A stretch of 15,539 bases of DNA from Desulfobacterales bacterium HSG17 (GTDB lineage: Bacteria; Desulfobacterota; Desulfobacteria; Desulfobacterales; Desulfococcaceae), in contig JAUCGD010000065.1 of assembly GCA_030377945.1 (NCBI GenBank), forward strand, positions 1-15,539, in the 5' to 3' direction. The notes under the pieces were generated by a model that was not told the origin of the DNA, did no database searches, and saw only the letters and a list, made by a program, of their open reading frames with translations. The position numbers and the translations under genes were made by a program. Of the stretch, positions 1,961 to 8,645 are shown in pieces. The number at the start of each line of letters is the position of its first letter. Positions within the stretch are counted from its first letter, which is position 1.

Positions 1961-2161
1961 GTGAAAGATATCAATACCCCGGGAGAAATAAAAGCAAGAT
2001 GCCTGAATTGCGGCGGGAAATTATATATTAAAAGAACCTGAGTAAAAATCTATTTTTGCTGCAGGTCATGCGCAACAGAGTATCCTGACGAGAGATATAA
2101 AGACCTTATGGATGAATATCTTGAAGAAAAACTCGCCAATATACCCATAAACAGATTATAG
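1961..2161 (+). CDS. Probable small selenoprotein with TRASH/YHS-like cysteine motif (in-frame TGA read as selenocysteine)
   Basis: Translated from GTG at 1961, the frame runs 26 codons, meets a single TGA at 2039-2041, then continues open for 39 codons to TAG at 2159-2161, giving 66 residues. An AAAGAG stretch about eight bases upstream can act as ribosome binding site. GTG is the only start after an in-frame TAA at 1937. The halves form one coherent protein: C14-x2-C17-G-G, then Sec27, then Y31-F32-C33-C34-x2-C37 and a charged helical tail containing YPDERYKDLMDEYLEE. The pattern CxxCG ... YFCCxxC followed by an aromatic residue resembles TRASH/YHS-type metal-binding modules, so metal or redox handling is plausible but unproven. 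A bacterial SECIS-like hairpin follows the TGA. I do not recognise this as a known selenoprotein family. The alternative is a pseudogene with a nonsense mutation; the hairpin and intact downstream frame argue against it. Confidence 0.72.
2039..2075 (+). promoter_or_regulatory. Bacterial SECIS element with its UGA codon
   Basis: After the TGA (2039-2041) the transcript can fold as TTGC (2056-2059), one bulged T (2060), GC (2061-2062), a seven-base loop AGGTCAT (2063-2069), then GC (2070-2071) and GCAA (2072-2075). All six pairs are Watson-Crick. The design matches the minimal SelB-binding hairpin of Escherichia coli fdhF: a bulged U in the 5' arm two base pairs below a loop that starts AGGUC. 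The GGT of the loop begins 22 bases after the TGA, compared with 18 in fdhF. The hairpin lies within the coding frame, as bacterial SECIS elements must. The fold was drawn by hand and no energy was calculated. Confidence 0.7.
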
Positions 2162-4254: not shown

Positions 4255-5169
4255 TTAAATTTGTTTAACCTTTTTTGCTGCCTGTGTGAGCAGATATTCC
4301 TTAAAAGTGCCTGCAACAGGAGAGAGTTCCCGATTTTTGCGCTGGATTAAATAAAAAGGACGCTGTAATTTAAGTCCTGTTACCTGCACTGCAACCAGTG
4401 TACCACTCTTGATATCGTCCACAAGAGCGCGCTGGGGAATAATCGAAACCCCTGCCCCTGCTTTGACAAGCTCCTTGACTGCCACGGTAGAGCCAATTTC
4501 AGCCACTTCGAGCAAATCTGTCTCTTTGTATCCATTAGATTCTAAAAACTGGGCTATTACCTTTCGTGTTCCTGAGCCTGGTTCCCTGAAAATAAAAGGT
4601 TGTGTAATCATATCTTTCAAAAAAATTTTCTGTTTTTTTTGTGCCCATGGATGTTTCGAATGAACAGTTAAAACAAGTTCATCAGTAAACACAGCTGTCC
4701 AGTGCAAGCTGTTTTCTTTCCATCGGGCACCTATCACTCCTAGTTCAAGCTCTCTTTGCAATACCTTATCCGCAATTATGCGGGAGCTGTTAATAGTCAG
4801 AGTGGTCTTGATGGCTGGGTGCTTCCGGTTAAACATGCCAATCATCTTTGGCAGAATGTAAGTTCCCGGGATAGTACCACTGCCAATGGTGACTCTGCCA
4901 ATCAGGTTGCCGCTGTATTGTTCTACAGCTTGTACAGCCTCTATCTGTATTTTAAGAATCCTGTCTGCATATTTGTATAGAATGCGCCCGACAGGAGTAG
5001 GCTCCACTTCATGTCCCAGCCTATCAAGCAGTTTTTGATTCAACTCATTCTCTAAATCACGGATATGTGACGTAACCGTGGGCTGGGTTAAAAAGACAGC
5101 TTGAGCTGCCCTGGTAAAACTTTTTAGTTCCACAACCTTACAGAATGCTTCAAGTTTCCTGATTTCCAT
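4255..5169 (-). CDS. LysR-family transcriptional regulator, resembling the selenium-metabolism-associated group
   Basis: DNA-binding regulator of 304 residues, the usual LysR length. The N-terminal winged helix-turn-helix is at residues 4-60, with the recognition region SFTRAAQAVFLTQPTVTSHI at about 17-36. The effector-binding domain covers about 90-295, including the REPGSGTR segment often seen in CysB/CbbR-like members. The opening MEIRKLEAFCKVVELKSF and the general sequence remind me of regulators annotated in sulfate reducers as selenium-metabolism-associated LysR proteins. This is recollection of the family, not a search result. It diverges from pstS across 170 bases with two palindromes, the classical arrangement for a LysR protein controlling the neighbouring operon and itself. 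The start ATG 5169 has a weak AAAGG about ten bases upstream. It converges on mltD with a gap of nine bases. Confidence 0.9.
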   Translation of the reverse strand: MEIRKLEAFCKVVELKSFTRAAQAVFLTQPTVTSHIRDLENELNQKLLDRLGHEVEPTPVGRILYKYADRILKIQIEAVQAVEQYSGNLIGRVTIGSGTIPGTYILPKMIGMFNRKHPAIKTTLTINSSRIIADKVLQRELELGVIGARWKENSLHWTAVFTDELVLTVHSKHPWAQKKQKIFLKDMITQPFIFREPGSGTRKVIAQFLESNGYKETDLLEVAEIGSTVAVKELVKAGAGVSIIPQRALVDDIKSGTLVAVQVTGLKLQRPFYLIQRKNRELSPVAGTFKEYLLTQAAKKVKQI

Positions 5170-5339: not shown

Positions 5340-6170
5340 ATGAAAACAAAAAAAATCTTTATTGCCTGTGTTGCTGTAATCACTTTGACCATGAGTATTA
5401 ATAGTTTTGCAGGTTCCATGGATATGTTTACCAATGCAAAAGGAACAATCAGAATCGCCGGTGGCACAGCGCATATACCAGTAATGAAAGAAGCTGCTGC
5501 CCGTATCATGACCCATAATCCAGATATTCATATAAGCATTGCAGGAGGAGGTTCTGGAGTGGGAATCAAACAGGTGGGAGAAGGTCTGGTTGATATCGGC
5601 AATTCCGGCAGAAAAGCAAAAGATACAGAAATTACTCTCTTTGGCCTTAAAATGTTTAAGTGGGCTGTTGATGGAGTTGGCATTGTGGTGAATCCAACAA
5701 ATAAAGTCAGAGATCTTAGCCAAGTTCAGGTTAAAGCAATTTTCAGTGGAGATATTACCAACTGGCAGGAAGTAGGAGGAGATGACAGAAAAATTAATCT
5801 TTACACCAGGGATAATGCAAGCGGAACCAGAGCAGTTTTCTGGAAAAAAGCACTTAATAAAGGAACAATAGCCAAAAATGCTAATTTTGTTGTTTCAAAC
5901 GGTGCCATGAAAGCTGTAATTTCCCAGGATCCCTACGCAATCGGTTATGTTTCAGTGGGTCATATAGACAGATCCATTGCAGCAGTTGCCTTTAACGGTA
6001 TTCAACCAACTCTTGCCAATGTTCAATCTGGTAAATACACCATTGCCCGGGGATTATACAGTAATACAAAAGGAGAACCCACAGGTCTTGTAAAAAAAAT
6101 TATTGATTACCTTTTTACTGAAGATGGTCAGGAAATTGTAGTTCAAAAAGGATTTGTTCCGGTAAAATAA
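5340..6170 (+). CDS. pstS: Phosphate-type ABC transporter, periplasmic substrate-binding protein
   Basis: Periplasmic receptor that delivers its oxyanion ligand, normally phosphate, to the PstCA channel. It has 276 residues, typical of the shorter PstS class rather than the roughly 340-residue E. coli type. Residues 1-24 are a signal peptide with likely cleavage at SFA/G. Ligand-loop motifs are present: AGGTAH at about 40-45, GGGSGVG at 69-75, DIGNSGR at 85-91 and NASGTR at 159-164, the last matching the serine and arginine that bind phosphate. The C-terminal GQEIVVQKGFVPV is typical of the family. The start ATG 5340 has AGAGAG eight bases upstream. It is first of four tightly spaced genes, pstSCAB. 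Phosphate is the family expectation; another tetrahedral oxyanion cannot be excluded from sequence. Confidence 0.9.
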   Translation: MKTKKIFIACVAVITLTMSINSFAGSMDMFTNAKGTIRIAGGTAHIPVMKEAAARIMTHNPDIHISIAGGGSGVGIKQVGEGLVDIGNSGRKAKDTEITLFGLKMFKWAVDGVGIVVNPTNKVRDLSQVQVKAIFSGDITNWQEVGGDDRKINLYTRDNASGTRAVFWKKALNKGTIAKNANFVVSNGAMKAVISQDPYAIGYVSVGHIDRSIAAVAFNGIQPTLANVQSGKYTIARGLYSNTKGEPTGLVKKIIDYLFTEDGQEIVVQKGFVPVK

Positions 6171-6175
6171 TTTTA

Positions 6176-7018
6176 ATGAGACATGAAAAAATCATTGAAA
6201 CATTATTTTTTCTTTCAGCTTTCCTTAGTTGTGTGATAACTTTTTCCATCCTTGGATTCCTGCTGATCCCGGGACTGCCGCTTTTTTGGGAAGGTCATTT
6301 TTTTGCCATTCTTACCACACCATGGGCACCTGATTACAACCAATTTGGCATTTACCCCATGGTGGCAGGAAGTATTGCTATTTCTCTTCTCACCATCATA
6401 TTTGCTTTTCCATTAAGCCTTGGCTGTGCTGCTTTTATAAGCTTAGAGGACAAAAATAAACCAGGCAGATTTATGCGCAAAATAGTAGAGATAATGACAG
6501 GTGTTCCCACGGTTATCTATGGATTTGTAGGTATCTTTTTATTGGTTCCCCTGATGCGTGATTTCTTTCATGCAGGTTCTGGAATGTGTGTACTGACAGC
6601 GGCATTAATGCTGACTCTACTTGTCTCTCCAACCATGATTCTTCTGTTTTGTGACAGTTTTGCACAAGTTCCAAAGTCATATGGTGATGCAATCATGGCA
6701 ATGGGTGGTACACAGATCCAAAAATTTCTTTATATTACCCTGCCCAATTCAAAGTCAGGAATTATCACTGGAATAACACTTGCTCTTGGCAGAGTCATGG
6801 GGGACACCCTTATCGCCCTGATGATAGCTGGTAATGCCGTTCAAGTTCCAGGTTCTCCATTAGATTCTGCAAGAGCTCTGACATCCCATATTGCTCTTGT
6901 TTTTGCTTCAGATTATAACAGCCCGGAATTTAAAGCTATTTTTGCATGCGGTATCTTCCTCTATCTTTTTTCATCCATAATTGCATTAATTGTAAATTTT
7001 ACCCGCAACAGGGGATGA
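6176..7018 (+). CDS. pstC: Phosphate-type ABC transporter permease PstC
   Basis: One of two membrane subunits forming the inner-membrane channel of the importer. It has 280 residues, shorter than E. coli PstC (319), with about six hydrophobic segments, the first at residues 8-34. The ATPase-coupling EAA loop lies at about 169-191 (SYGDAIMAMGGTQIQKFLYI), and the motif MTGVPTVIYGFVG (107-119) is characteristic of PstC. It starts five bases after the pstS stop with no obvious Shine-Dalgarno sequence, so translation is probably coupled to pstS. Its TGA stop is followed after ten bases by pstA. Confidence 0.9.
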   Translation: MRHEKIIETLFFLSAFLSCVITFSILGFLLIPGLPLFWEGHFFAILTTPWAPDYNQFGIYPMVAGSIAISLLTIIFAFPLSLGCAAFISLEDKNKPGRFMRKIVEIMTGVPTVIYGFVGIFLLVPLMRDFFHAGSGMCVLTAALMLTLLVSPTMILLFCDSFAQVPKSYGDAIMAMGGTQIQKFLYITLPNSKSGIITGITLALGRVMGDTLIALMIAGNAVQVPGSPLDSARALTSHIALVFASDYNSPEFKAIFACGIFLYLFSSIIALIVNFTRNRG

Positions 7019-7028
7019 ACACAAATTT

Positions 7029-7910
7029 ATGAGGATATTTATTGAAAAAAACCTTGCATTGTTTGCCAGTATTTGTACTTTTATTTTGCTTACAGCGTTT
7101 GCCAGTATCCTTGGGTTTTTAATTATCAAAGGCTTTAGAACTCTCAACCTTGAACTTATCTTTGGGACAACACCACCTCTTGAGGCATTGCTGTTCAGAA
7201 GGCAGGTTTTTAACGGACTTTTCCCTGCCATTACTGGTACTTTTTTACTTATTATTTTAAGTATCTGCTGGGCAATTCCCATGGGACTTGGAGCTGGAAT
7301 TTATCTTGCTGAATATGCCACAGGTAAAACAAAAAAAATTCTTAATATATTTTTTGATATTCTGGCAGGGCTTCCTTCAATTGTGGTAGGGCTTTTTGGA
7401 TTTTCAATAACAATTTTGCTAAATAAGAACCTCTCCAACCAAATTTATCCATGCCTGTTGATTTCAAGTCTAGCTCTTGCTTTTCTGGTTCTCCCCTATA
7501 TTATTCGCACCACCCAGGCAGCCCTTGAAGGAGTACCGGTTCTATTGAGGATGACTGCTCCTGCACTTGGGGCAAGCAAACTGCAAAACATAATCAAAAT
7601 TTTGCTTCCCCAATCTCTTTCAGGAATAATAAGCGGGGTTATTCTTGCCACTGGGCGTTGCGCAGAAGATACTGCAGTTATAATGCTGACCGGAGTTGTT
7701 GCTTCAACTGGAATCCCCGGTTCTATATTTTCCAACTATGAAGCTCTGCCATTTTATATATATTATATCTCCTCTCAATACTCAAATCAACAAGAGCTGA
7801 CAACCGCTTACGGAGCAGCTATTATCCTGCTTACAATCTGTTTGATTCTCTTTAGCCTGGCATTTATTATCAAAAAAAGAATAAACCTATATTCAGATAT
7901 CAAAATATAG
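7029..7910 (+). CDS. pstA: Phosphate-type ABC transporter permease PstA
   Basis: Second membrane subunit of the PstSCAB importer. It has 293 residues with about six transmembrane segments, the first at about 8-35. The segment GAGIYLAEYATGKTKK (residues 88-103) and LAGLPSIVVGLFGF (about 112-125) are hallmarks of PstA. The EAA-type coupling loop RMTAPALGASKLQNIIKILL is at about 173-192. The periplasmic/C-terminal region has the usual GIPGSIFSNYEALPFYIYY stretch. AGGGGA at the end of pstC is the nearest possible ribosome binding site but is rather far (about 12 bases) from ATG 7029. It is followed after 21 bases by pstB. Confidence 0.91.
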   Translation: MRIFIEKNLALFASICTFILLTAFASILGFLIIKGFRTLNLELIFGTTPPLEALLFRRQVFNGLFPAITGTFLLIILSICWAIPMGLGAGIYLAEYATGKTKKILNIFFDILAGLPSIVVGLFGFSITILLNKNLSNQIYPCLLISSLALAFLVLPYIIRTTQAALEGVPVLLRMTAPALGASKLQNIIKILLPQSLSGIISGVILATGRCAEDTAVIMLTGVVASTGIPGSIFSNYEALPFYIYYISSQYSNQQELTTAYGAAIILLTICLILFSLAFIIKKRINLYSDIKI

Positions 7911-7931
7911 GATTTCAAAGTTGAAATAATT

Positions 7932-8645
7932 ATGAAACAAGAAATTATAAAAGAAAAGAAAATTAAAATCAGGCAGCTTTCATTCTCCTATAATGACAAA
8001 ACAATCCTGGATAATATTTCCATGGATTTTTTAGATCATAAGATCACAGCGATTACAGGACCATCGGGTTCCGGCAAGTCCACATTTCTAACAATTCTTA
8101 ATCGCTTATGGGAAACAACGCAGGGATGTGCATTGCAAGGGCAGGTAGAAATAAAATTTGGGGACAGCTTCCAGAACATTTACCAGAGGCAATACTCTGC
8201 AACCCGCCTGCGAAGGCAGGTAGGCATGGTATTTCAAACTCCGAACCCTCTTCCCATGAGCATATATAAAAACATTGTCTTTCCCTTAGAACTGTCAGGG
8301 AAAACCGACAAAACCAAGCATAAAATTATGGTTGAGGAGTGTTTAAAATTAACAGGGCTCTGGGATGAAGTTTCTGACAGACTTAACTCTTCTGCCCTTG
8401 AATTGTCCGGGGGCCAGCAGCAAAGGCTTTGCATTGCACGGGCCATGATCCTGCAACCTGAAATACTTCTGCTTGATGAACCCACATCCTCACTTGATCA
8501 TAAAGCTTCCACAGCCATAGAACATCTTTTGGTAAAACTGAAAAAACAGTGTACTATCCTAATCGTTTCCCACTATCTTGATCAGGTACAGAGGATTGCT
8601 GACTGTATTGTTGAATTGCAGAATGGAAAACTCAAGCAGCGCTAA
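7932..8645 (+). CDS. pstB: Phosphate-type ABC transporter ATP-binding protein PstB
   Basis: Cytoplasmic ATPase driving the PstCA channel. It has 237 residues, a little shorter than most PstB (about 250). Walker A GPSGSGKST is at 43-51, and the PstB-typical Q-loop FQTPNPLPMSIYKN at about 98-111. The ABC signature LSGGQQQR is at 158-165. Walker B ends in D182-E183. The H-loop reads VSHY, with the switch histidine present. The C-terminus stops soon after IVELQNGKL. No phoU follows: the next gene is on the other strand, and its last 14 bases overlap the end of pstB. No terminator is visible after the TAA. The absence of phoU means the usual Pho signalling partner, if any, is encoded elsewhere. 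Confidence 0.91.
   Translation: MKQEIIKEKKIKIRQLSFSYNDKTILDNISMDFLDHKITAITGPSGSGKSTFLTILNRLWETTQGCALQGQVEIKFGDSFQNIYQRQYSATRLRRQVGMVFQTPNPLPMSIYKNIVFPLELSGKTDKTKHKIMVEECLKLTGLWDEVSDRLNSSALELSGGQQQRLCIARAMILQPEILLLDEPTSSLDHKASTAIEHLLVKLKKQCTILIVSHYLDQVQRIADCIVELQNGKLKQR

Follow-up and report, generated by a model that had tools for sequence, protein, structure and literature searches.

A short frame on the forward strand of the window, by which we mean the whole 15,539-nucleotide stretch of Desulfobacterales bacterium HSG17 DNA analyzed here, is in our view almost surely a genuine selenoprotein gene of the NCBIfam family NF041197, with the UGA at codon 27 decoded as selenocysteine (Sec) through a SECIS loop and a product that most likely forms a single zinc ribbon. 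The gene occupies positions 1961-2161 (+), from a GTG at 1961 to a TAG at 2159-2161. It specifies 66 residues, and its sole TGA is codon 27 (2039-2041), exactly as the initial annotation had read it. With this TGA taken as Sec, the cysteine pattern described there is recovered as well, with C14-x2-C17 ahead of the site and C33 C34-x2-C37 behind it. The first CxxC knuckle (C14, C17) lies at 2000-2011, the SECIS hairpin at 2056-2075, the second knuckle (C34, C37) at 2060-2071 with its codon 35 (AGG) inside the SECIS loop, and a conserved tail with D51, E55, R65 and a terminal R-L/I at 2111-2158. The protein scores 69.7 bits against NF041197 ("dual CXXC motif small (seleno)protein", CxxC_Se_CxxC; cut-off 40) over model positions 1-53 of 53. 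It also has the two CxxC motifs that flank the Sec/Cys position in this family and the interchange of Sec and Cys at that position.

A hidden selenoprotein gene of 66 residues is thus readable from the raw sequence. The prediction that standard gene callers would miss or split such a frame is borne out by both database relatives found. P0003 is annotated as a 37-residue fragment that starts after the TGA. P0002, whose TTG start aligns with the GTG of the window gene, carries Trp at the Sec site in its database entry, and the same sequence read as locus L005 has TGA there. The two entries exemplify how databases mis-call such genes, by a truncated start and by Trp read-through, respectively. 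The promoter with a 17-base spacer that had been placed upstream (1881-1909, 9/12 matches) is at about chance level, with three promoter-like sites in the scanned region against a shuffle mean of 1.7 (sd 1.2). A promoter and terminator scan of the same region revealed no terminator.

The feature stands above chance because of two comparative observations, the exchange of TGA and Cys at the site and the AGG codon in the loop. Among 68 distinct homologous frames, residue 27 is encoded by TGA in 57, is Cys in 10 and is Trp in one. This count leaves out frames with a domain score below 55, frames whose profile match starts after position 3, and identical 60-nt frames. Ordinary codons at this position, which the initial annotation had named as the observation that would speak against Sec, are confined to a single frame, as 67 of the 68 carry TGA or Cys. 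Nine of the ten Cys forms are alike and probably belong to one clade, hence the ten do not represent ten independent changes; the tenth (L025) differs from the others. In the Trp form (L074, genome G246), TGG replaces the Sec codon and the first Cys has been lost; the AGG loop is kept, and the genome retains selB and tRNA-Sec. This locus, perhaps a decaying copy, provides the single result against a strict Sec/Cys rule. At another locus (L021:5468-5625) the frame breaks just after the Sec site, through either a sequencing error or a broken copy; it was dropped from the 68 frames by the filters given above.

Wider searches agree with this picture. A scan of GTDB genomes yielded 21 loci, all 21 with TGA at residue 27, L018 of Desulfospira joergensenii among them, under the titles Desulfobacula, Desulfotignum, Desulfospira, other Desulfobacteraceae, Desulfobacterales or Deltaproteobacteria. 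With the Desulfospira joergensenii genome (G001) as reference for class and phylum, the class sample of 389 genomes contained the family in 251 (237 over the cut-off), against none of 14 controls, and the phylum sample of 247 genomes contained it in 65 (50 over the cut-off). The whole-genome searches read through all stops, and every internal stop among the matches listed is a TGA, TAA and TAG being absent. The locus-by-locus reading of frames splits at TAA and TAG and is blind to those codons at the site. Ten further Cys forms, of two other looks, were found in the phylum (L093-L102). Taken together, the comparative evidence makes Sec at codon 27 nearly certain.

Codon 35 shows a second regularity. 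In the 57 Sec frames it is AGG in 44, ACG in 8, AAG in 3, GGG in 1 and ATG in 1, so that wherever residue 35 of a Sec form is Arg, the codon is AGG (44/44). At the comparison sites of the same genes, AGG encodes Arg25 in only 4 of 52 cases and Arg65 in 16 of 56; locally, AGG makes up a mean share of 0.17 of the Arg codons (41 loci with at least 20 Arg codons). None of the ten Cys forms has AGG or the Arg-Ser pair; residue 35 is Asp in seven of them and residue 36 is Ala in eight. In Sec genes, selection preserves the loop bases. A SECIS that is also coding fixes codon 35 in the Sec forms, while the Cys forms carry other residues, mostly Asp-Ala.

The hairpin itself was found where the initial annotation had located it, with a bulged U and with AGGUC beginning 22 bases after the TGA ends. 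The lower stem pairs 2056-2059 (TTGC) with 2072-2075 (GCAA), the bulged U is at 2060, and the upper stem pairs 2061-2063 (GCA) with 2069-2071 (TGC) around a loop at 2064-2068 (GGUCA). The stem-loop begins 15 nt after the UGA and the loop 23 nt after it. Bacterial SECIS elements, by the rule used in bSECISearch, are in-frame stem-loops a short way downstream of the UGA whose first two loop positions hold G, and the window loop GGUCA conforms to this type of rule. Nothing resembling a SECIS was found in an Rfam scan, whose hits are at chance level and far short of the gathering scores.

The structural measurements are less informative than the codons. The folding check that had been suggested gave a negative answer, as the 47-nt sequence folds no more stably than its shuffles (z = -0.04; 84 of 200 shuffles at least as stable). 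Hairpin stability alone is no evidence for a SECIS, and the energy was rejected as an argument. Cys homologues need no SECIS. Their apical stem is paired in 81.3% of cells in ten sequences vs 80.1% in the Sec forms, and because these percentages are equal the stem does not discriminate Sec from Cys forms. The two Cys codons (TGC), which lie three codons apart, impose most of this stem. Over the family, a register with the U paired accounts for 80.1% of cells vs 65.1% for the bulged-U register seen in the window. The compensatory stem changes that the initial annotation had hoped for exist in a weak form only. Four of eight pairs show two-sided changes; with relatedness ignored, 71 of 500 shuffles attain that number of pairs, 11 of 500 the covariation score, and 7 of 500 the number of cells with two-sided change. 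Covariation was set aside as main support.

The machinery for Sec insertion is present in the relatives. SelB scores over the cut-off in 38 of 39 relatives tested (9/9 and 29/30, the miss being G095) and in 2 of 14 controls. A tRNA-Sec is over the cut-off in 29 of 31 relatives (misses G008 and G358); this is weaker evidence than selB because 5 of the 14 controls also pass. The genomes of all ten Cys forms in the 68-frame set keep selB, though in G358 the match covers model positions 1-270 only, and it follows that Sec and Cys are exchanged gene by gene.

We note that the window also encodes a LysR regulator (4255-5169, -) that matches NCBIfam NF040786, "selenium metabolism-associated", at 290.1 bits vs a cut-off of 250. 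This regulator was found in 19 of 20 relatives and over the cut-off in 1 of 14 controls. In the window it is divergent from a PstS-like ABC transporter at 5340-8645. A link between the two was considered and dropped: PstS-like genes occur in 15 of 20 genomes and are neighbors of the regulator only in G006, in another orientation.

The product is conserved well beyond the Sec site. C14, C17, C34, C37, D51, E55 and R65 are present in 66 of 66 distinct full-length homologues, and R25 in 61 of 66; this set applies the filters of the 68 frames and in addition a profile start at position 1, which excludes L074 with its missing C14. Taken by itself, the window protein stays below the cut-off of every Pfam family. 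Better results were obtained with a profile of 60 members (the window protein and 59 of 64 references), which matches the zinc ribbon of YfgJ (2jrp) at E = 2.5e-4 and Pol III RPC10 at E = 0.012. Zn_ribbon_RPB9 of Pfam is found at E <= 0.01 in 13 of the 60 members; the window protein is outside those 13 and has no Pfam family at E 0.01. The AlphaFold2 model is of low confidence (mean pLDDT 62) and places strands at residues 20-25 and 30-34 on either side of residue 27, and a helix at 52-59. Foldseek gave nothing at E <= 0.001 (best 0.32), with RPB9-type ribbons among the first rows but without significance.

Two further cysteines vary. In 56 Sec forms, only C63 is present in 28, only C33 in 21, both in 4 and neither in 3, so that 53 of 56 have one or both. 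No one fixed resolving Cys was found, as both positions vary. The two may serve as interchangeable resolving cysteines, a possibility suggested by this distribution, and their near-exclusion may simply reflect clade structure, with two clades.

Three other explanations were weighed against the selenoprotein reading. Were the TGA a real stop, the ORF it closes would be a 26-residue leader, what follows would be either a separate ORF or the remains of a gene, and the Cys codons would have produced the hairpin incidentally. The chance-level stability of the hairpin and the equally good pairing in the Cys forms suit this explanation, as does P0003, annotated as an ORF of 37 residues whose start lies beyond the TGA. 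It is nevertheless highly improbable, since 57 distinct TGA forms preserve the frame both before and after the site and the other homologues have Cys or Trp there, since the matches listed from the read-through genome searches contain no TAA or TAG, and since every Arg35 of the Sec forms is AGG. A reassignment of TGA to Trp in this lineage has hardly any chance of being correct. It would account for the Trp in the database copy P0002 and for the TGG of L074; against it, the residue is Cys in 10 of the 11 non-TGA frames and nearly all relatives tested possess selB. TGA terminates 18 of 55 Sec-form genes and therefore is not globally reassigned, and of 15 long genes in the window, 4 use TGA as their stop, where reading through would add 8 to 25 codons.

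The third explanation concerns the fold and not the decoding. The initial annotation described the protein as TRASH/YHS-like, and a metal-handling domain of this kind is quite unlikely, if somewhat less so than a real stop. Its CxxC and FCCRSC sequences do resemble such motifs, and there is one TRASH match, to PF24273. That match is far below the cut-off (10.6 vs 27 bits, E = 0.68), and the profiles at family level are those of zinc ribbons.

For the selenoprotein that we favor, the following sequence of events may be envisaged. UGA codon 27 would be decoded as Sec when the downstream stem-loop presents its GGUC loop to SelB. The same loop encodes Arg35-Ser36 of the second CxxC knuckle, and the constraints on SECIS and protein are therefore joint. 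In the protein, C14, C17, C34 and C37 are predicted to bind Zn in a single zinc ribbon, with Sec27 placed between the two knuckles and probably within a β-hairpin turn, beside the conserved Arg25, where it may be an exposed and reactive selenol. A short helix and the invariant Arg65 would follow the ribbon. The tail could dock on a larger partner, and the protein might then act as a small redox finger or one that handles metal or selenium. Such a role fits the anatomy of the protein, and we offer it as a guess from sequence. The literature searched gives no function for the NF041197 family, yet it is widespread among the class genomes sampled.

The genomic neighborhoods are of several kinds. 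Over 61 loci including the window (with the stretches of L018/L059 and L015/L072 counted twice), the opposite strand upstream carries a phosphoribosyltransferase gene in 21 and an ArgJ-like gene in 19, and an argG gene lies upstream in 18. A TruA-like gene is downstream in 16, a pseudouridine-synthase-like gene is nearby in 17, and 17 loci have a LysM transglycosylase-like gene, which is downstream in 15 of them; the ArgJ, TruA and pseudouridine-synthase labels are those that we presume to apply. Two arrangements can be distinguished. In the first, which is that of the window, the gene is divergent from a xanthine phosphoribosyltransferase gene that has argG on its far side, and a LysM transglycosylase gene is often found downstream; profiles identify the window neighbors as argininosuccinate synthase, xanthine phosphoribosyltransferase and, below the cut-off, a murein transglycosylase D-like protein. 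In the second, the gene is divergent from the ArgJ-like gene and is often followed by the TruA-like gene. The Cys-form loci L093-L102 have other neighbors again. No functional coupling follows from this variety, and the neighborhood was discarded as a guide to function.

Among the sub-cut-off matches of the phylum search, which come from 31 genomes, is a paralogous subgroup with a GxU motif. All ten of its loci that were read (L103-L112; for example L112:6065-6217 and L106:6022-6153) have one TGA at the corresponding site, and when members were scored as proteins two of three exceeded the NF041197 cut-off. dsrA is present in 30 of the 31 genomes. In five of these 30 the match lies within about 6 kb of dsrA (G418, G565, G588, G454 and G488, the last with a match outside the ten loci read), in five it shares a contig with dsrA at a large distance, and in 20 the contigs differ. 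Genes that we take to be dsrP/O/K/M-like stand beside the GxU gene in L104 and L109. The proximity to dsrA is a lead only, as the genomes may be close kin and do not then provide independent evidence. Among the papers listed for selenoproteins together with dissimilatory sulfite reductase, none evidently concerns a GxU gene near dsrA. This paralogue and the constraint that the SECIS loop places on codon 35 are the additions of the present analysis. A bolder interpretation, which we consider unlikely, would have the selenol-tipped zinc ribbon enter a sulfur or redox partner complex of the sulfate reducer, with the GxU gene near dsrA marking the pathway, the SECIS loop having shaped the knuckle, and Cys33 and Cys63 alternating as the resolving residue.

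Several known systems can be compared with the window gene. The initial annotation had the hairpin nearly copying the apical domain of the Escherichia coli fdhF SECIS; the two share sequence there but differ in spacing and loop length. We presume that fdhF, like the window, has a single U below the upper stem. The fdhF sequence (NC_000913) reads TGA-CACGGCCCATCGGTTGCAGGTCTGCACC, and the 8-mer TGCAGGTC and the GG of the loop are common to both; in the window, 4 more nucleotides separate TGCAGGTC from the UGA, and the loop has one extra base. On the protein side, the double zinc ribbon of YfgJ (2jrp, 2jne) is likely a fold relative, judging from the profile alignment. It shares the CxxC ribbon, and a YfgJ Cys aligns with the Sec site, but it has two ribbons and no Sec, and the profile E-values are only 2.5e-4 and 0.059.

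The closest systems are selenoproteins already on record, and the description of the protein as undescribed does not hold. The protein passes the NF041197 cut-off, and a 2026 review (PMC13188914), in the part available to us, already catalogs the family. There NF041197 appears as OS_HP3 with the motif RxU, citing Zhang and Gladyshev 2007, and once more as "Hypothetical protein DW" with the motif GxU, citing deep-Sep 2025 (PMC12013277). The DW entry, as given in that part, is assigned to the same NCBIfam model but differs from the window protein in having GxU in place of RxU; the GxU subgroup near dsrA is perhaps this DW protein. R25-T26-U27 of the window fits the RxU of OS_HP3 as it is listed there, the two CxxC motifs and the Sec/Cys exchange are likewise shared, and nothing essential in the window protein sets it apart. 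The window gene is a further member of the known selenoprotein family NF041197.
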